From Candidatus Pacearchaeota archaeon (GTDB lineage Archaea > Nanobdellota > Nanobdellia > Pacearchaeales > GW2011-AR1): 40,136 nucleotides of DNA. Position 1 is the stretch's first letter; each line of letters starts with the position of its first letter. The translations under genes and the position numbers were made by a program. The DNA is taken from positions 1 through 40,136 of the forward strand of contig JAAOYK010000026.1 of the NCBI GenBank assembly GCA_018221305.1, written 5' to 3'. Below, piece by piece: positions 629 to 9,615 of this stretch. Below the pieces are notes generated by a model. It saw nothing but the letters and a program-made list of their open reading frames with translations, was not told where the DNA came from and did no database searches.

Positions 629-2347
629 TTATTTAAATAACTGCTTCAAATCAGGTGCGTTTGCAGTTATTTCTTTAAAATTATCTAAATAATCATCATC
701 TAATCTTTTAAACAAAGCTTCTGGATTTCCAATTTTATGCTTTTTAGGAATTTCATAATCTTTTGCAGTATCCCAATTTTTAGGATCATCAACATTCCCT
801 TTAAGACCTATCTGCTTCCAAACATTTTTGGCAGCATTTGGAACAAAAGGAGAAAAAATAATAGCCAAGGTTCGACAAAGGTTTACACAATTGTAAAGAA
901 TTTTTTTAGTTTTTTCTTCATCTTCCCTAACAAGAACCCAAGGTTTACAGTCATCAAAATACTTATTACCTTGTGCTGAAAGTGCAAACGCTTCAGAAAA
1001 TGCTTTTTTAATTTCTGCAGCCTCTAAATAATCAGTAATCTTTTGAACACCTGTGTTTACTTTTTTCATTAGTTCTTTATCATTTTTAGTAAATTCATTT
1101 TCATTAGGTTTAATTACTTCTCCACCTAATTTTCCATTAACAAACTTTAAAGTTCTATTAATAAAATTGCCAAAATTACCTATGAGATCTGCATTTATTC
1201 TGTTCTTAAAATCTTCCCATTTAAATTCAGAATCACTAGTTTCAGGAAGCACAAAAGTAATATATGCTCTAATAATATCAGAATCAATACCTGTTTCAGG
1301 CAGTTTTTCACAAAAAATACCACGTTTCTTACTTTTTGAAAATTTTCCGCCTTCATAATTCAAATATTGATATCCTGCCACATGATTTGGAAGATTAACA
1401 ATTCCTCCAGAAGCCATTATTGTTGCAGGCCAAAAAATAGTATGAAAAGGAATATTGTCCTTACCTAAAAAATGAAAAATCTGAACATCTTTTCCTTTCC
1501 AAAAACTTTTCCAACCATTAGGAAGTAATTCTTTTGTAGAAGAAACATACCCAATAGGTGCATCAAACCAAACATAAAGAACCTTATCTTCATATCCCTT
1601 TAAAGGAACAGAAACACCATTTTTCAAATCCCTAGTAATACTTCTTTCATGCAAACCTTCTTTTATCCAGCCTTGCGCAATACTCCTCACCTGAGTCCTC
1701 CAAGATTTTTGTTTTGCAATCCACTTTTTCAGTTTTGGCTCTAATTGATCTAATCTTAAAAATAAATGTTTTGCGCTTCGAATTTCTACAGCATTTCCTG
1801 TTATAGAAGACTTCGGATTTTTCAGTTCAGTAGGATCATGAACAGAAGTACATTTTTCGCATTGATCCCCGCTTGCCCCTTCAAACCCACACTTAGGACA
1901 TTGCCCCCTAACATACCTATCTGACAAAAAACGCTTTTCAGTTGGTGAATAAAAAACATTCATAACCCCCTCTTTTATGTACTTATTATCATAAATAGCT
2001 TTAAAAAATTCTTGAGTTGTTTTATGATGAATAGACTTACTAGTCCTTGAAAAGTTATCATAAGAAATATTAAACCATTTATAAATTTCTGCATGAATCT
2101 CATACAATTTTTTAGAAAAAACATCTAAAGAAATTCCAATCTCCTCAGCCGCTATCTCTGAGGGAGAACCACTTTCATCAGTACCGCCTACAAAAAGGGT
2201 TTCATAACCTTTAGATCTACAATACCTAGCAAAAATATCCGCAGGCAAATGACTTCCAGCAATATGACCTAGATGCGGAACATTATTTATGTAAGGGAGC
2301 GCAGCAGTGATTAATATTTTCTGATTCTTTGTTTTCTTATTTACCAT
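629..2347 (-). CDS. metG: Methionyl-tRNA synthetase
   Basis: PHLGHIAG (HIGH), KFSKSKKRG (KMSKS), zinc knuckle CPKCGFEGASGDQCEKC; start probably MVNKKTKNQKILITAALPY (2347) rather than 2368. Confidence 0.95.
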   Translation of the reverse strand: MVNKKTKNQKILITAALPYINNVPHLGHIAGSHLPADIFARYCRSKGYETLFVGGTDESGSPSEIAAEEIGISLDVFSKKLYEIHAEIYKWFNISYDNFSRTSKSIHHKTTQEFFKAIYDNKYIKEGVMNVFYSPTEKRFLSDRYVRGQCPKCGFEGASGDQCEKCTSVHDPTELKNPKSSITGNAVEIRSAKHLFLRLDQLEPKLKKWIAKQKSWRTQVRSIAQGWIKEGLHERSITRDLKNGVSVPLKGYEDKVLYVWFDAPIGYVSSTKELLPNGWKSFWKGKDVQIFHFLGKDNIPFHTIFWPATIMASGGIVNLPNHVAGYQYLNYEGGKFSKSKKRGIFCEKLPETGIDSDIIRAYITFVLPETSDSEFKWEDFKNRINADLIGNFGNFINRTLKFVNGKLGGEVIKPNENEFTKNDKELMKKVNTGVQKITDYLEAAEIKKAFSEAFALSAQGNKYFDDCKPWVLVREDEEKTKKILYNCVNLCRTLAIIFSPFVPNAAKNVWKQIGLKGNVDDPKNWDTAKDYEIPKKHKIGNPEALFKRLDDDYLDNFKEITANAPDLKQLFK

Positions 2348-2381
2348 AAAACACCTAGAAAAATACAATTAATAAAATTAA

Positions 2382-4307
2382 CTAATCAAACCAAGATACC
2401 CATTTTGTATCATCCGGGTCAGGCAAAACCCCATCCCAAACATTATTAGACCTTTCAGGCCTTTGTCCAACAATATCCCCTAGACTTGGATGTGCTGGCT
2501 GACTCAAACGCCTATCTCGTTCCTCTCTTTGCTTTAAAAAAGTATTAAGCTTCTCCACCCTTTCGTTATAATCAGAAGTTAAATTCAAATCACTAATACT
2601 TGCAGCAGCAGAATTTCCTTCATCACTCATACCTAGCCTTTGGCGTAAAGAACCATGAAAGACCTCTGCATTAGGATCAACTTGCGCGTCGTCTGGATCT
2701 GGGCTTGGGCTTGGCTTGTAAGATTCGTTTTGCTTTTGCTCTTGTACTAAATTTTCGTTTTCGTTTAGGTTCTGGCCTTCTGCTAAAGAGTCGACTTCCG
2801 CCTCCGGCGGTGAACCGGTTTCCTGAGCCTCTGCACTGCTTCGGCTTGCTCGAGGGATTTGATCGGCTCGACTGGCGGGTCTGGCTTGATCGGTTTCGGG
2901 GGTTCGAGGATTTCGGGTTTGATTTTTGTTTTTTTTTTTAAAATCCCTAACAACGCGTTTAACAAAACTAGTAGCTTTAACTTTTCGGACACAGTCACAA
3001 GGACTATAGGCTCCAGCAACCCCAATTCGTGTAGGGCGCGAAGAATCATATTTAATCATCTTTTTCTCAAACATACCATAATTTTTAGGATCTAAAACAC
3101 TCCGAATTTCACTAGCCATCACACCACCAACAATATGATTAGTAATAACAACACTAGGATTTGGAGAATAAATACAGCTTCTGCTTGTTCTTGCTTTTGC
3201 TAATGCTTCATCAACAGACCACCTACAATTTAAACAAGCAGTTTGTCCAGGCACATAAGTTGTAACTTGTCCAGCCTTAGGGTCTGTTCCCCCAGAGATT
3301 AACGGAATATGATATTTTATTGCAAAATGGTTTAAGATTGCACGTGTCGCATGATTATCAACACAATCAAGAATAACATCTGGATTTATTTTTTGTAATT
3401 CATCTTCAAAATTTTCAGTAACTCTACCGATTATTGCTTCAATATTTGCATTAGGATTAATGCGCTTAATACGGTCCCCTAAAACTTCTGCCTTATGTTT
3501 GCCAACAGAATCATAAAATAATATTTGTCTGTTCAAATTAGTTGTTTCAATAGTATCATCATCTGCAATATAAAGTTTTCCAATACCACTATATCCAAGA
3601 CCAATACCTGCAAAATTTCCTGACGCACCAGCCCCTACAAGCAATGCAGACTTACTTTCTAAACTAGCAAGTTGTAATTGATGATCTTTTGCAAACTTTG
3701 TTCTCAAATCATACTTCAAATTAGAAATACTATTTCGACCCATCAAATGATTAACAACCTCTCCAGATAACAGACCTGTTATTACTTCACTTGTGATGCC
3801 ATCTTCATTCCCAACATCATTACTCAAATCTTCATCCTTAAGATAATCAGTAAAAGAAGATCCCTGCTCATCCCCTCGTATAACATAAGTTTTTAGATCT
3901 TTAGATTCTGCATAGGTATAATATTTTGCAACATCTAAAAGATTATTTGTAGCAATGACTAAAACATCTAAACCATCAAGATATCTTGCAGCAACAGTAT
4001 CATAATCCATATTAAACCCAAGAACATTAACTAACGGATTAATTCTGGACACTACATGTTCTAATTTTTCAACCCGATTTCCACTCCCATTACTTTGAGC
4101 TAGCAAAAACCCATCTTTTGATTCTGGGTCAGCTGCAACTTTATCATAAAGACGCACATCTCCAACACCCAAAGATGCAAAAGATGCTGCTAAAAAGTTT
4201 CCAGAATGTCCGCTGCCTACAATCCCAACACTTGACTTTGTTAGTTTATCTTGATCCCAGCCTTCAATACGTTCCTGACGATCATACCGATTTATTGCTT
4301 CACTCAT
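2382..4307 (-). CDS. E1-like ubiquitin/ThiF-family activating enzyme with two Rossmann domains and a long low-complexity C-terminal tail
   Basis: N-terminal RYDRQ and VGSGHSGN; second domain VGAGASGN, DDDTIETTNLNRQ, GKHKAEVL, DCVDN, CLNC...CDC zinc cysteines, SCIYSPNPSVVIT loop cysteine. Confidence 0.9.
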   Translation of the reverse strand: MSEAINRYDRQERIEGWDQDKLTKSSVGIVGSGHSGNFLAASFASLGVGDVRLYDKVAADPESKDGFLLAQSNGSGNRVEKLEHVVSRINPLVNVLGFNMDYDTVAARYLDGLDVLVIATNNLLDVAKYYTYAESKDLKTYVIRGDEQGSSFTDYLKDEDLSNDVGNEDGITSEVITGLLSGEVVNHLMGRNSISNLKYDLRTKFAKDHQLQLASLESKSALLVGAGASGNFAGIGLGYSGIGKLYIADDDTIETTNLNRQILFYDSVGKHKAEVLGDRIKRINPNANIEAIIGRVTENFEDELQKINPDVILDCVDNHATRAILNHFAIKYHIPLISGGTDPKAGQVTTYVPGQTACLNCRWSVDEALAKARTSRSCIYSPNPSVVITNHIVGGVMASEIRSVLDPKNYGMFEKKMIKYDSSRPTRIGVAGAYSPCDCVRKVKATSFVKRVVRDFKKKNKNQTRNPRTPETDQARPASRADQIPRASRSSAEAQETGSPPEAEVDSLAEGQNLNENENLVQEQKQNESYKPSPSPDPDDAQVDPNAEVFHGSLRQRLGMSDEGNSAAASISDLNLTSDYNERVEKLNTFLKQREERDRRLSQPAHPSLGDIVGQRPERSNNVWDGVLPDPDDTKWVSWFD

Positions 4308-5508
4308 TATTCACGCCTCCAGTATTTGTTCCATCATCCTCCTCATCATCACCTATATCGAACAAATGTGCTTCAAACCAATCCTTTCCTGAAAAAAATT
4401 CATCATACTCATCACCGCTTAATTGTTTTAATTTTCTAGGCCGAGTTACATCATCTGGCTTGATTCTTCTCCTATCAACAATTTTTACACGTTTGTATTG
4501 TTCAGGAGGAGTATAAATTTGTTCTTGACCAATTTGTTCTTGACCAACTTGTTCTGGACCAGTTTGTACTTGACCAGTTTGTACTTGTTTTTGGCGATTT
4601 TTTCCTTTCTTTCCTTTCTTTCCTCGTTTACCTTTTCCACCACAAAAAATTCTATTTAATCCTGCAGTAACAGGTATATAAACTCTTGGAGGTGGATAAA
4701 CTATTTTTGATTTTACCTCCTTTTTCAATTCCTTAACATTTAAACTTAAACCAGTTTTATAGTCTAAAACTTTTACTGGAACTTTTTCATGTTGATATTC
4801 ATTTTTATGACATCCAGTACAAAAATTTACTGTAGCAATTTCCCCATAAGGCTTGCTTCCAATAGCGTTTACCACCATACTATAAGCATAACTAATCTTT
4901 TTAGGAGTTCTTAAAACTAATTTCTCTATTGGGAGATATGCTAATGGATTTTCATCTAGTTTTGAAAACAAAATTTCAAGACGTTTACTGTTATTGTTTC
5001 TATCACAGATCATAAGTTTAGAATCACCAAACATTGTCTTTTTTAGGTCTCCGCTCAAAATTTCTTTTTCAGTGTACTGATTAATATAATTAGATGCAGC
5101 AATTTGATTAACAATTGTCCTATGATTTGCATCATCAGTTCCAGAATGAAACGTTGGCATTGTGGCATGACTATGCCACCATCCAAGGACCCTCATCCCA
5201 AGATTCTCCCTTATATCTCTTCCAGCTTCAATAACTTTTTCTGAAGGAATATAAACATGAGCAGCATTAGGCTCTTGACCCGGAGCGAAGTAAACATCAT
5301 AAGCAATCCTATTCTTCCGATCCATTGTACCAATTAAATACCCATAACATTCAATATGTGATCCATTACGCTCTCTTGCAAGTTGTGCATACAAGCTTGC
5401 CTTAACATACGCATCCTTTGTGATATAAATTCGTGAAAAAGGATTTTTTTCTTTTTTTACTTCAACAGGAACTTCTTGCGACAATAATTCATCTAATCTC
5501 TTATTCAT
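4300..5508 (-). CDS. JAMM/Mov34 (JAB) metalloprotease domain protein, predicted deubiquitinase-like isopeptidase
   Basis: IECYGYLIG (upstream Glu), HSHATMPTFHSGTDD = HxHx7SxxD; basic and Q-rich C-terminal tail. Confidence 0.9.
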   Translation of the reverse strand: MNKRLDELLSQEVPVEVKKEKNPFSRIYITKDAYVKASLYAQLARERNGSHIECYGYLIGTMDRKNRIAYDVYFAPGQEPNAAHVYIPSEKVIEAGRDIRENLGMRVLGWWHSHATMPTFHSGTDDANHRTIVNQIAASNYINQYTEKEILSGDLKKTMFGDSKLMICDRNNNSKRLEILFSKLDENPLAYLPIEKLVLRTPKKISYAYSMVVNAIGSKPYGEIATVNFCTGCHKNEYQHEKVPVKVLDYKTGLSLNVKELKKEVKSKIVYPPPRVYIPVTAGLNRIFCGGKGKRGKKGKKGKNRQKQVQTGQVQTGPEQVGQEQIGQEQIYTPPEQYKRVKIVDRRRIKPDDVTRPRKLKQLSGDEYDEFFSGKDWFEAHLFDIGDDEEDDGTNTGGVNNE

Positions 5509-6911
5509 CGTCTGCGCCCCCTTTGATAATTTATATTAGTTATTGGCAACTTCTTTTTCTTAATTTCTCTTAAACTAATTCTTCTATCTTCAAAATTTGA
5601 ATCGCTTAAACTTCTATAAGGATTACTCCCTTTCTGATATCCATGAAGAATAACATTTCGTGCATCAAGCAAATATTTTGCAATAGCTTTTCCCCGATCC
5701 ATTCTATCAAAATAATCATGATTATAATGTCCCATACATAATCCTGAGCTGCCAGACCCATCATAAAAAGGACCAACCACATGGGAAAGTTTATGAGGTC
5801 CACGATCAAGACCTGCATTTTTATAACCAGAATTCCATTTAAGCCGTAATGCAATTTTATGACCTTTAAAACGATAATACGCCTCACGCCCAGGACTTTT
5901 AAGCACATAATCCGGAATTTTAGCGTAAAGAAGTAATTTATTATCCGCAGCCTTTTCAAAACCAAATTCGCCCTCATGATAAGTATTAACACCTGCATAC
6001 TTTGCTATATCAATTTCTTTAGTTCTTAATTTTTGATATTCAGCATTTTCTGCAAACTTATGGCGTAGTGCATCAAGCGACAATTCATTAGCTTTTCTTT
6101 TAGAAAATTCTAAAAAAAGTTTTCTCGATTCAATAGCATTTTCTAAGATATAACCACGCCCATCAACATTTAATTCACCACCAAGAGGCATCTTTCTTAA
6201 AAAATACAAACTACGATCAATTATTGCAAAATCCTGTCCATTTGTTAAACTATAAAGTACAGAATCCCTTCTGTCAACCTCAGGTTCACCCCCAAGATCA
6301 ATCCCTTTCCTTACTGAAACAGGAAGCAAAATAGCATCCAAGCTTTTTTCTTTCATCCGGTTTCTGGACCTAGAACTTTTAGTAGGAACTATTGGTTTAT
6401 ATCTTGATCTCTCATTTTCAAAATATTTTACCCGTCCTTCAAAATAATCTGCAACTTTTTTATCATAATCCCTTACAGCCTTACCAGATTTACTTTGTTT
6501 ACTAACCTTTTTACTTTTAGCTTTTGTATTAAATACTGAAGCTAACATACCTTCATCATCATGGCGTAAATACGGAAAAACATTTCGAAGCACAAATCTC
6601 ACCAAATTATTATCTCCACCAAGATTTGTTAATCCAGACCTTTTAAATTCTTCTTTAATAAAAATATCCTGATAAATAGCATAACTTTCACTTAATTTAA
6701 TGTCTCTAAGCTTTTCTAAAACTCTTAAGCTAGGACCTTCTTTTACAGGTCGCACCCTATCACTATGAAATTTAAAGGTGTTTGGGCCAGAGCGGCTATT
6801 ACCAAAGCAATAATGAACTTGTCCGTTTATAACAAAAATCGGGGTTCTTTGTGCCAGCCCAAACACCTGATCATTGTCCATTACTGCTCCTTCAATAGCT
6901 CGTGATACCAT
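5505..6911 (-). CDS. Candidate E2-like conjugating protein (uncharacterised N-terminus, E2-like C-terminal GLCMG motif)
   Basis: Located between Ubl-like and JAMM/E1 genes; C-terminal ...GPHKLSHVVGPFYDGSGSSGLCMGHYNHDY... with Cys at codon 5736-5738; only two Cys in the protein. Confidence 0.5.
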   Translation of the reverse strand: MVSRAIEGAVMDNDQVFGLAQRTPIFVINGQVHYCFGNSRSGPNTFKFHSDRVRPVKEGPSLRVLEKLRDIKLSESYAIYQDIFIKEEFKRSGLTNLGGDNNLVRFVLRNVFPYLRHDDEGMLASVFNTKAKSKKVSKQSKSGKAVRDYDKKVADYFEGRVKYFENERSRYKPIVPTKSSRSRNRMKEKSLDAILLPVSVRKGIDLGGEPEVDRRDSVLYSLTNGQDFAIIDRSLYFLRKMPLGGELNVDGRGYILENAIESRKLFLEFSKRKANELSLDALRHKFAENAEYQKLRTKEIDIAKYAGVNTYHEGEFGFEKAADNKLLLYAKIPDYVLKSPGREAYYRFKGHKIALRLKWNSGYKNAGLDRGPHKLSHVVGPFYDGSGSSGLCMGHYNHDYFDRMDRGKAIAKYLLDARNVILHGYQKGSNPYRSLSDSNFEDRRISLREIKKKKLPITNINYQRGRRR

Positions 6912-6914
6912 CTT

Positions 6915-7274
6915 TTACTGTAACAGGGAAGCTAATCCGCCCTCTTGGACTGATGCAATCTCCATGTCAAGCGCCTTGTATGGAACGTTTTGGTGTTCTC
7001 TCTCAGTAAAAAGACCTCTTACTTTGTCTTCAGACCGAGCAGATGTACCATTAACTGCTACTGTGTAATCACTTTTCATCTCTTCACGAACACTACCAGC
7101 TACTGCAACTTCATCATCAGTTAACTGATCATGAGTTGTTAAGTACTCAAGAACGTCCTTTACGTTTTGGCTCACGTATGCTTTTGGTAACTGCCTCATT
7201 AAACATTCGTCAGGTCCTGACAATGCAGTTCTGACAGATGCTACATACTTTACCTCAGGGTTTGCTTGTGCCAT
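6915..7274 (-). CDS. Ubiquitin-like/beta-grasp protein precursor with C-terminal GG-LASLLQ
   Basis: YTVAVNGTSA...ALDMEIASVQEGGLASLLQ; ATG at 7274 preceded by AAGGAGG on the minus strand, so the ORF-track start at 7304 is probably too long. Confidence 0.7.
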   Translation of the reverse strand: MAQANPEVKYVASVRTALSGPDECLMRQLPKAYVSQNVKDVLEYLTTHDQLTDDEVAVAGSVREEMKSDYTVAVNGTSARSEDKVRGLFTEREHQNVPYKALDMEIASVQEGGLASLLQ

Positions 7275-8538
7275 TTGTTTTTCCTCCTTGCAATTTATTA
7301 TCATGAATCAAAGAAAGCAAAGCATCTTGAGGCTGCAAAATTGTTTTATCAGTCACATATAATTCATTTATACCAGCACCAGGAAGATAAAATTTGAACG
7401 GAGATAAAGCTTCCTCCATCACAGATTTTAATCCCCTAGCACCGATACCTCGCTCATAAGCTTTTTGCGCAATAGCATCAATAGATTTTTCATCAAAATT
7501 AATCTTCAAATCATATGCCTGAAAATCTCCAACATAAGATTTTAATATTGACTCTTCACTTTCAGTTAAAATTTTTACTAGATCATTTTTTGATAATTCA
7601 TTAAACTTAGTCAAAACCGGAAACCTACCCAAAAATTCAGGCACCAAACCATATTTTGTTAAAGCCATTATAAGTCCTGGAGAATCAGCGTCATGAAGCA
7701 ATTGCCCATAATTTGCAGACTGTTCTACTGCAAACTCTTCAATAATATTTTTATCTAATGATTTATATAATTCAGAGAAAGCTCCTCCAGCAATGAACAA
7801 GATGTCTTTTGTATCCATCACCTTTGGACCACTAGATGTCATTACTGGAATTTGTGCAGACTCAATAAGTTTAAGGAGCCCATTTTGAACATCTCTTCCA
7901 GCAACATCCCTACCTCCACCTTTTGCTGCAGCAATTTTATCAATTTCATCTAAATAGATAATACCCCTAGCTGCTTTCTCAGAATCTCCTTCAGCTTTTA
8001 TTACCAATTCTTGAATTAAGCTGCTCACATTATCACCAACATAACCTGTTCCTGAAAAACGCGTAGAATCTGCAATCAATAATGGCACATCTAGAAGTTG
8101 TGATACTTTTTCCACTGCATAAGTTTTTCCACTACCAGTTGGTCCAATAAGAAGAGTATTAGATTTTTTTCTTCCAGAAATTTCAGCGCCCTTATAATGG
8201 TAACACACAGCATTACAAATTTGTTGCAGGCCTTGACCTTGACCAATAACATATTTAGTCAAATCACTAAATAAATCACGTGGTGTTTTGTTAAATTCTT
8301 CGTTTGTTTCTTCAATAATATTAGCTTCAGAAATACCAGTATTAGTATTAACAACAGCAAAATCATCAGTACTAGCCCCAACAACAGGCGCTCCTGCCAT
8401 AGGAGTGTCACCAACAGGAGGCTGACTTGAATTAGCCCCATTTAAAAGATCATGTAATTTTGAATTTCTTCGCGATCCAGAATCATTAGGTCTTGGGATA
8501 CCTAATATCCTACTTAGCGGATCACGCCTTTGCGCCAT
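7255..8538 (-). CDS. ClpX-like AAA+ ATPase (zinc-domain-less)
   Basis: Walker A GPTGSGKT, Walker B IIYLDEIDK, pore loop TGYVGDNV, GRDVQNGLLKLIE, YGLVPEFLGRFPV, GARGLKSVMEEAL. Confidence 0.93.
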   Translation of the reverse strand: MAQRRDPLSRILGIPRPNDSGSRRNSKLHDLLNGANSSQPPVGDTPMAGAPVVGASTDDFAVVNTNTGISEANIIEETNEEFNKTPRDLFSDLTKYVIGQGQGLQQICNAVCYHYKGAEISGRKKSNTLLIGPTGSGKTYAVEKVSQLLDVPLLIADSTRFSGTGYVGDNVSSLIQELVIKAEGDSEKAARGIIYLDEIDKIAAAKGGGRDVAGRDVQNGLLKLIESAQIPVMTSSGPKVMDTKDILFIAGGAFSELYKSLDKNIIEEFAVEQSANYGQLLHDADSPGLIMALTKYGLVPEFLGRFPVLTKFNELSKNDLVKILTESEESILKSYVGDFQAYDLKINFDEKSIDAIAQKAYERGIGARGLKSVMEEALSPFKFYLPGAGINELYVTDKTILQPQDALLSLIHDNKLQGGKTNGTSKP

Positions 8539-8742: not shown

Positions 8743-9615
8743 ATGGTCTTAGATAGCAAAACAATGGGGGAAATCTGTAAATTTGTTAAACTAAAACCAC
8801 GAACAGTACAAGAAATTTCTATACTTCTTAAAAAAAATTGGCGAACTGCAGAGCGTTATATTGAAAAAATTTCAGAAGAAACAGGCTGTATTAAAACTAG
8901 AATTTTTCGTGGAGGAACAAGGGGCGCCTTAAAAATTGTTTATTGGAACATGTTAGATGATATTCATTCAACAAGTTTTCAAGAAGAATTACTAGAAGAA
9001 ATAATGAAAGGGAAAAGACGTTCAGATTTCTCACCATTTGATATTTACCAATATATTGAGGACGAGAAAAAACAAGCACATATTGAAGATGCAACAATGA
9101 TCGATACAGATATTGAGATAAGTAAACAACAAGACCTAATAACAGCACTTAGAAACGCACAAAAACAGATACTAATTTTTTCAGGAAACCTTTCATGGAT
9201 AAATTCACATCAACAAGGAACCCCAATAATAAACATCATAAAAGAGATTGCAATGCGTAAAATTCCAATAAAGATAATTGCCCGGGTTTCAATTGTAGGT
9301 GCTCAAAATGTTGACAGACTTTTATCAATAAATAAAGAAGTCGGAAGAGATATAATAGAAATAAGACATAGGTACCAACCATTACGTGCAATAGTAATTG
9401 ACAATAAGGTAGTAAAAATGCGCGAACTACGAGAGCCAATATTTTACAGATATGGAGAACTAAAAAAGAAAGTTGAAGTATTCTATGACATTTATGACCC
9501 AGAATGGGCAGAATGGCTACAAAAAGTATTTTGGAAAATGTATACAAAAGCCTTACCAGCTCCAAAACGTATCAAAGAGATTGAAAAAATTCAAAACAAA
9601 ATTTTACTGTCTTAA
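8743..9615 (+). CDS. Winged-HTH transcriptional regulator with TrmB/PLD-like C-terminal sensor-type domain
   Basis: N-terminal HTH VQEISILLKKNWRTAERYIEKISEETG; C-terminal ILIFSGNLSWINSH...IKIIARVS...LRAIVIDNKVV. Confidence 0.65.
   Translation: MVLDSKTMGEICKFVKLKPRTVQEISILLKKNWRTAERYIEKISEETGCIKTRIFRGGTRGALKIVYWNMLDDIHSTSFQEELLEEIMKGKRRSDFSPFDIYQYIEDEKKQAHIEDATMIDTDIEISKQQDLITALRNAQKQILIFSGNLSWINSHQQGTPIINIIKEIAMRKIPIKIIARVSIVGAQNVDRLLSINKEVGRDIIEIRHRYQPLRAIVIDNKVVKMRELREPIFYRYGELKKKVEVFYDIYDPEWAEWLQKVFWKMYTKALPAPKRIKEIEKIQNKILLS

Follow-up and report, generated by a model that had tools for sequence, protein, structure and literature searches.

A putative ubiquitin-like conjugation cassette encoded together with an AAA+ unfoldase in archaea and bacteria

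The five-gene operon and its products

Contig JAAOYK010000026.1 of a Candidatus Pacearchaeota archaeon (assembly GCA_018221305.1) carries five open reading frames (ORFs) on its minus strand, running from position 8538 to 2382 and encoding, in this order, a ClpX-like AAA+ unfoldase, the precursor of a ubiquitin-like (Ubl) modifier, a candidate E2 conjugating enzyme, a JAMM/JAB metalloprotease and a pseudodimeric E1. The window analysed here is the whole contig of 40,136 nucleotides, drawn from a genome that is 60.7% complete. An earlier note, made from the letters of the sequence, had described five co-directional genes, overlapping or 3 bp apart, in an archaeal host, and all of the ORFs are present as it described them. 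The overlap between the ClpX-like and Ubl genes amounts to 50 bp counted from the first ATG of the latter (7304) and to 20 bp from ATG 7274; a gap of 3 bp separates the Ubl gene from the E2 candidate, and overlaps of 4 bp and 8 bp join the E2 to the JAMM gene and the JAMM to the E1 gene. MCM, TBP, L15e and an archaeal-type DNA ligase are readable on the same contig, which is therefore archaeal; contamination was rejected on these grounds.

The AAA+ protein (7255..8538, minus strand, 427 aa) contains Walker A and B motifs, a GYVG pore loop, an arginine finger and a sensor-2 GAR motif. It matches the NCBIfam ClpX model at 1.4e-82, with 277.8 bits against an equivalog cut-off of 359, and Pfam AAA_2 at 2.2e-25. 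Its assignment as ClpX-like follows from this sub-threshold match, from the motifs read in the sequence and from the motif comparison presented below.

The Ubl precursor (6915..7274, minus strand) most likely starts at ATG 7274, since a Shine-Dalgarno sequence, AGGAGG, stands just upstream; this start gives 119 aa, and the first ATG would give 129 aa. The protein ends in IASVQEGG-LASLLQ; the note had listed it as a Ubl-like precursor with this GG-LASLLQ end. AlphaFold2 predicts a single beta-grasp domain (predicted local distance difference test score, pLDDT, 84), with strands at residues 19-26 and 35-38, helices at 48-57 and 63-77, and strands at 80-84, 87-89, 100-104 and 107-118. The top Foldseek matches of the model are the SHARPIN/HOIP structure 5x0w, GABARAP/Atg8, a ubiquitin variant and a SUMO-like domain, at probabilities of 0.87-0.97 but with E about 0.02 and template modelling scores of 0.4-0.6. 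The Pfam, NCBIfam, PADLOC and PHROGs models gave no match to this protein, and neither hmmsearch against the PDB nor hhalign to ubiquitin, NEDD8 and SUMO was significant; its identity as a Ubl, in agreement with the note, is supported by fold comparison and not by profiles. The hhalign templates, here ubiquitin, NEDD8 and SUMO1 and below eukaryotic E2s, were approximate sequences. Glycine tails recur among the homologues: of 58 distinct ORFs upstream of E2 genes, 48 end in GG followed by at most 20 residues, five in GA or GC and five in neither, a count that is indicative only because the ORFs were picked by position with a preference for glycine tails and a few are likely in the wrong frame. 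Several bacterial Ubls terminate exactly at GG. A different arrangement, JAMM-E2-E1, is seen at loci L040, L041, L122 and L126, where the small upstream proteins end in DDVGCR, DDVGICI or DDVGNG, not GG.

The 468-aa product of the third gene (5505..6911, minus strand) contains a candidate catalytic cysteine, Cys392, in the motif [H]PF-x(n)-[IL]C-M-G. Across the family this cysteine is kept in 68/68 proteins, the preceding histidine in 62/67 and the proline in 63/67. The AlphaFold model (pLDDT 75, predicted template modelling score 0.53) places a helix at 262-298, strands at 310-368, the Cys392 loop and helices at 399-453, an order compatible with the UBC fold. None of the Pfam, NCBIfam, PADLOC and PHROGs models matched this protein, and a profile search against the PDB failed. 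The N-terminal half forms an extra region beyond the candidate E2 part. Two E2-candidate genes occur at each of four archaeal loci (L032, L034, L039, L087), either adjacent to each other or flanking the E1 gene, hinting at E2 diversification.

The fourth product (4300..5508, minus strand, 402 aa) matches Prok-JAB at 3.4e-10 and JAB at 5.8e-7 in Pfam and has a complete metal site, E53-H112xH114-x7-S122xxD125, which bears out the JAMM isopeptidase named in the note. Each of E53, H112, H114, S122 and D125 is kept in 61/61 family members. The NCBIfam desampylase model reaches E = 0.0083, and the C-terminal tail is of low complexity. Several JAMM proteins are very long, reaching 878 to 1403 aa, and their extensions are uncharacterised (L031:4345-7197, L035:5485-8121, L067).

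The E1 (2382..4307, minus strand) matches ThiF at 7.4e-57 over residues 212-425 (Pfam) and carries a degenerate Rossmann half at its N-terminus, so that the double-Rossmann architecture of the note holds. In the active half, the GxGxxG motif, N257, R260, Q261, K272, D317 and the candidate catalytic Cys378 are each invariant in 87/87 relatives. R10 (81/83) and Q11 (82/83) are kept in the N-terminal half, which lacks the active-site set; by comparison with MoeB and UBA1 we take it to be a UBA1-like inactive half. In the PDB, the E1 matches eukaryotic UBA1, ThiF and MoeB best. Where the PADLOC E1-E2 models align best, they cover the ThiF half, E2 and E1 being separate genes here. The C-terminal tail is again of low complexity. 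In archaeal cassettes L033 (1433-3130) and L057 (11289-12788), and also in L035, a gene for a eukaryotic-like protein kinase lies downstream of E1 (Pkinase 7e-30 and 3e-31 in L033 and L057), and the Ubl is of the GGGLTP type. No RING or UBC match was found in the five window proteins with Pfam and NCBIfam, consistent with the note, which had seen no RING E3.

Distribution of the cassette and its AAA+ partners

A search with the E2 candidate matched 21 of 377 genomes of the phylum, and in 16 of these genomes besides that of the window the match adjoins E1 and/or JAMM homologues. A scan with the E1 as query extended the set to Woesearchaeota, Pacearchaeota, Nanoarchaeota, Aenigmatarchaeota (L068), Acetothermia (L062), Methylomirabilota (L111), many Thermodesulfobacteriota and deltaproteobacteria, a Lokiarchaeote (L107) and Heimdallarchaeota; owing to the choice of query, this list is biased toward relatives of the E1, and the Heimdallarchaeota share only the E1 with the cassette. 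The E2 profile was found in 15/297 genomes in the phylum of bacterial locus L092 and in 7/197 in the phylum of the Lokiarchaeote. Bacterial loci follow the order Ubl-E2-X-ClpX-JAMM-E1 or E1-Ubl-E2-X-ClpX-JAMM, where X is a protein described below. Asgard loci show E2-JAMM-E1, with an E1 mostly of single-Rossmann size, and one of them has an upstream Ubl-like ORF ending in HRGGN. The minimal E2-JAMM-E1 set of Lokiarchaeota-type genomes (L107, L191-L196) is separate from the E1 loci of Heimdallarchaeota. The cassette is conserved across distant archaea and bacteria, and the strong co-occurrence of homologous genes answers the neighbourhood check proposed in the note; since the gene set recurs in many genomes of both domains with invariant catalytic residues, it represents more than a chance assembly.

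The dedicated unfoldase to which the note had drawn attention proved to recur, as a ClpX-like or an Mpa/ARC-like protein. A ClpX-like operon gene is present in the window and in three other archaeal genomes (G134, G284, G181). Among bacterial loci of the main type with enough flanking sequence it lies inside the operon in 27/27, two of which are probably duplicate records, and the four bacterial loci without it end within 1 kb. In five further archaeal genomes (G106, L052, L053, L055, L064) an Mpa/ARC-like proteasomal ATPase stands directly before the Ubl gene, in the slot of ClpX; these proteins match TIGR03689 over OB and AAA regions at 1e-102 to 1e-125, below the cut-off of the model.

The operon ClpX proteins share the catalytic AAA+ core and GYVG pore loop with housekeeping ClpX, but lack both the zinc-binding domain and the [LM]GF (IGF-type) ClpP-docking loop. 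Cassette-bearing bacterial genomes encode a housekeeping ClpX in addition, and in nine such controls the zinc domain was present in 9/9 and the docking loop, in the region compared, in 8/9. An HbYX-type C-terminal tail was found neither in the five ARC-like proteins nor in the ClpX-like proteins. In a tree computed without the odd L154 row, the operon ClpXs together with a third paralogue group split from housekeeping ClpX with 100/100 support; monophyly of the operon ClpXs as a whole was not rejected (approximately unbiased test, p-AU 0.087), but neither was it demonstrated. The third paralogue, a ClpX-like AAA+ of 550-650 aa, is often found in cassette-bearing bacterial genomes (L144-L148, L173-L177), is distinct from housekeeping ClpX and usually precedes a gene whose product has ~400 aa; this paralogue shows no linkage to the cassette. 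ClpP had no match in the 60.7% complete genome of the window or in G134, G284, G193 and G315, and G158, like G181, gave a weak partial match.

In 30 bacterial loci (L092:11965-12432 and relatives), and in no archaeal one, the gene between those for E2 and ClpX encodes protein X, which is ~150 aa long and without a family. It is a possible adaptor between the tag and the unfoldase.

Ubl-directed unfolding and its alternatives

The gene set, its conservation, the catalytic residues, the missing docking motif and the predicted Ubl fold suggest that the cassette is probably a Ubl conjugation system with an unfoldase of its own, in which Ubl-directed unfolding is uncoupled from the usual protease and the modifier is recycled by JAMM. 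The JAMM protease would trim the precursor to its GG terminus, which the E1 would adenylate much as UBA1 does, the active Rossmann half holding ATP and the inactive half contributing an arginine finger. The Ubl might then be loaded as a thioester on Cys378 of the E1, handed to Cys392 of the E2-like protein and passed on to substrates, no separate RING E3 being encoded in the operon. Substrates so marked would be engaged by the AAA+ ring and threaded through its GYVG pore, and JAMM would remove and recycle the Ubl. From the gene context we infer that tagging precedes unfolding; the relay, the conjugation, the recognition by the ring, the recycling and their sequence are offered as a model. Its output may be Cdc48-like unfolding or extraction and not direct degradation of the ClpXP type, because the ring has lost the protease-docking element and no ClpP was found in G134 and G284, two near-complete archaeal genomes of the ClpX type.

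Several observations weigh against this model. The window protein has GPF where the E2-candidate family has HPF. Foldseek with the full-length model of the E2 candidate found nothing, Pfam over 21 and 13 family members gave no meaningful match, and hhalign against four, then nine, eukaryotic E2s yielded no significant alignment and did not outperform the controls. At a very low alignment threshold, hhalign placed YxF...Y-HP...IC on YPF...YHPN...ICL with E = 0.41, which was not counted. The 468-aa protein is therefore called a candidate E2 only: the assignment of the note finds backing in the invariant cysteine of the HP[F]-x(n)-IC motif, the predicted topology and synteny, and not in any significant fold or profile match. 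Within the flanks that were fetched, most archaeal loci, all but those named above, contain no AAA+, so the unfoldase is not obligatory in archaea; the archaeal-operon ClpXs do not clearly form one clade with the bacterial ones; and G181, a genome of the ClpX type, has a weak, partial PF00574 match at 2.6e-7. The earlier interpretation is, overall, supported.

A different fate of the tagged proteins is conceivable, though on balance doubtful: the AAA+ ring could feed them to the 20S proteasome or to an unknown protease, in the manner of PAN, Mpa or the 19S ring. All archaeal genomes tested have 20S subunit genes, the sister loci place a proteasomal ATPase with OB domains beside the Ubl, and a precedent for Ubl-linked proteasomal turnover in archaea appears in two reports (PMC4895103, PMC4569737). 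Against such proteolysis stand the missing HbYX-type C-termini, the absence of the ClpP-docking loop from the operon ClpXs and the fact that JAMM is the sole protease gene of the conserved cassette. The ring could also act on the cassette itself, remodelling or disassembling complexes of its E1, E2 or JAMM in place of tagged substrates. Long extra or low-complexity regions in these three proteins would suit a maintenance chaperone of this kind, and the contact between Ubl and AAA+ is itself conjectural, but ARC-type rings are known readers of a protein tag, and their placement in the slot of ClpX, immediately ahead of the Ubl, makes it improbable.

Known bacterial E1/E2/JAB/Ubl operons are often linked to defence (PMC13373217), and the patchy occurrence of the cassette (21/377, 15/297 and 7/197 genomes) would fit an anti-phage or other conflict system of the Bil, Bub or type II CBASS kind. 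We consider this quite unlikely, however: PADLOC has no family for the Ubl or the E2, the E1 and JAB proteins match only its general E1-E2 and JAB domain models, ten sampled flanking genes showed no consistent defence context, the cassette was not found in viral contigs, and plasmid and phage records returned nothing with E2 queries. A role in sulfur transfer akin to ThiS/ThiF, SAMP/UbaA or CysO/Mec, with the Ubl carrying a thiocarboxylate and the 468-aa protein not being an E2, seems more remote still. The E1 is ThiF-related, JAMM proteins also process sulfur carriers, and the 468-aa protein has no significant E2 fold match; yet no sulfur-metabolism gene was recognised in the conserved cassettes, the E1 is pseudodimeric like conjugating E1s, and the invariant cysteine in its HP-x-IC context and the AAA+ partners argue for conjugation.

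If Ubl-directed unfolding is correct, the cassette might further represent an undescribed cross-domain class of Ubl systems, in which a tag with E1, E2 and JAMM recruited an AAA+ protein at least twice, once ClpX-like and once Mpa/ARC-like, each time without the standard protease-docking element, yielding a prokaryotic system analogous to the ubiquitin-Cdc48 segregase and not to the proteasome. We advance this wider proposal tentatively. What reads the tags in known prokaryotic Ubl cassettes is mostly unknown, and in the present cassette the likely reader is a product of the operon itself, one that recurs in both domains. Ubl tagging would thereby be linked to protein unfolding in a minimal system, small enough to be rebuilt in a test tube, and it would become possible to test how tags and unfoldases come to be coupled and whether use as a segregase preceded degradation.

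Known systems and neighbouring genes

The ubiquitin operon of Caldiarchaeum subterraneum (PMC5654768) is likewise a compact archaeal set of E1, E2, Ubl and JAMM, with a pro-Ubl tail after GG that JAMM trims there; it includes a small RING E3 and recognisable ubiquitin and E2, and no AAA+ is described in it. The cassette reported here has an AAA+ and no RING gene, and its Ubl and E2 match no known family. Bil (BilABCD) also unites Ubl, E1, E2 and a JAB-type protease in one operon, but BilA is an ISG15 homologue and the system has an anti-phage role, whereas the window Ubl is one beta-grasp domain and not an ISG15-like double Ubl; Bil is not known to include an AAA+ unfoldase. The Bil E1 combines inactive and active adenylation halves, as here (PMC11354881). 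Bub, CBASS Cap2/Cap3 and the 6A-6E operons (PMC1779556, PMC13373217) share E1, E2, JAB and often Ubl with the cassette, but E2 and E1 domains are fused in types 6a-6c, in contrast to the separate E2, pseudodimeric E1 and AAA+ of the window. The 2006 survey of bacterial E1/E2/JAB operons mentions no AAA protein (PMC1779556).

The window E1 falls outside the PRTRC (6d) ThiF family, scoring 40 bits against a cut-off of 144.75. The SAMP/UbaA system of haloarchaea shares an archaeal Ubl with E1 and JAMM (desampylase); its E1 is a homodimeric single-Rossmann protein, and the system is not known to have an E2 or a dedicated AAA+ in the operon. The UbaA model gives the window E1, with its second Rossmann half, 98 bits against a cut-off of 450. 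The Pup-proteasome system (Pup, Mpa/ARC, PafA, Dop) resembles the sister loci in placing an Mpa/ARC-like ATPase beside a protein tag. Pup is disordered and is ligated by PafA, whereas the cassette pairs a beta-grasp Ubl with E1, E2 and JAMM, and the ATPases of its sister loci have no HbYX tail; models of Pup, PafA and Dop matched none of the five window proteins. Searches of the open-licence literature found no description of the cassette and, for these known systems, no mention of an AAA+ encoded with E1, E2, JAMM and Ubl; judged against that literature, the cassette is provisionally new.

Two genes flank the operon. Methionyl-tRNA synthetase (metG; 629..2368, minus strand), identified by reading of the sequence, lies 13 bp downstream of the E1 gene and is possibly co-transcribed with it; we count it as a neighbour outside the system. 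On the opposite side, a divergently transcribed plus-strand gene (8743..9615) encodes a protein that reads as a winged-helix regulator and had no confident family match in Pfam and NCBIfam. A close homologue (4e-80) lies near a related archaeal cassette in L056 (L056:1-816), and the position of the window gene makes its product a possible regulator of the operon. In bacteria, a coiled-coil protein of ~110 aa with weak ZapA similarity accompanies the cassette in 15 loci (L092:8637-8969 and relatives).

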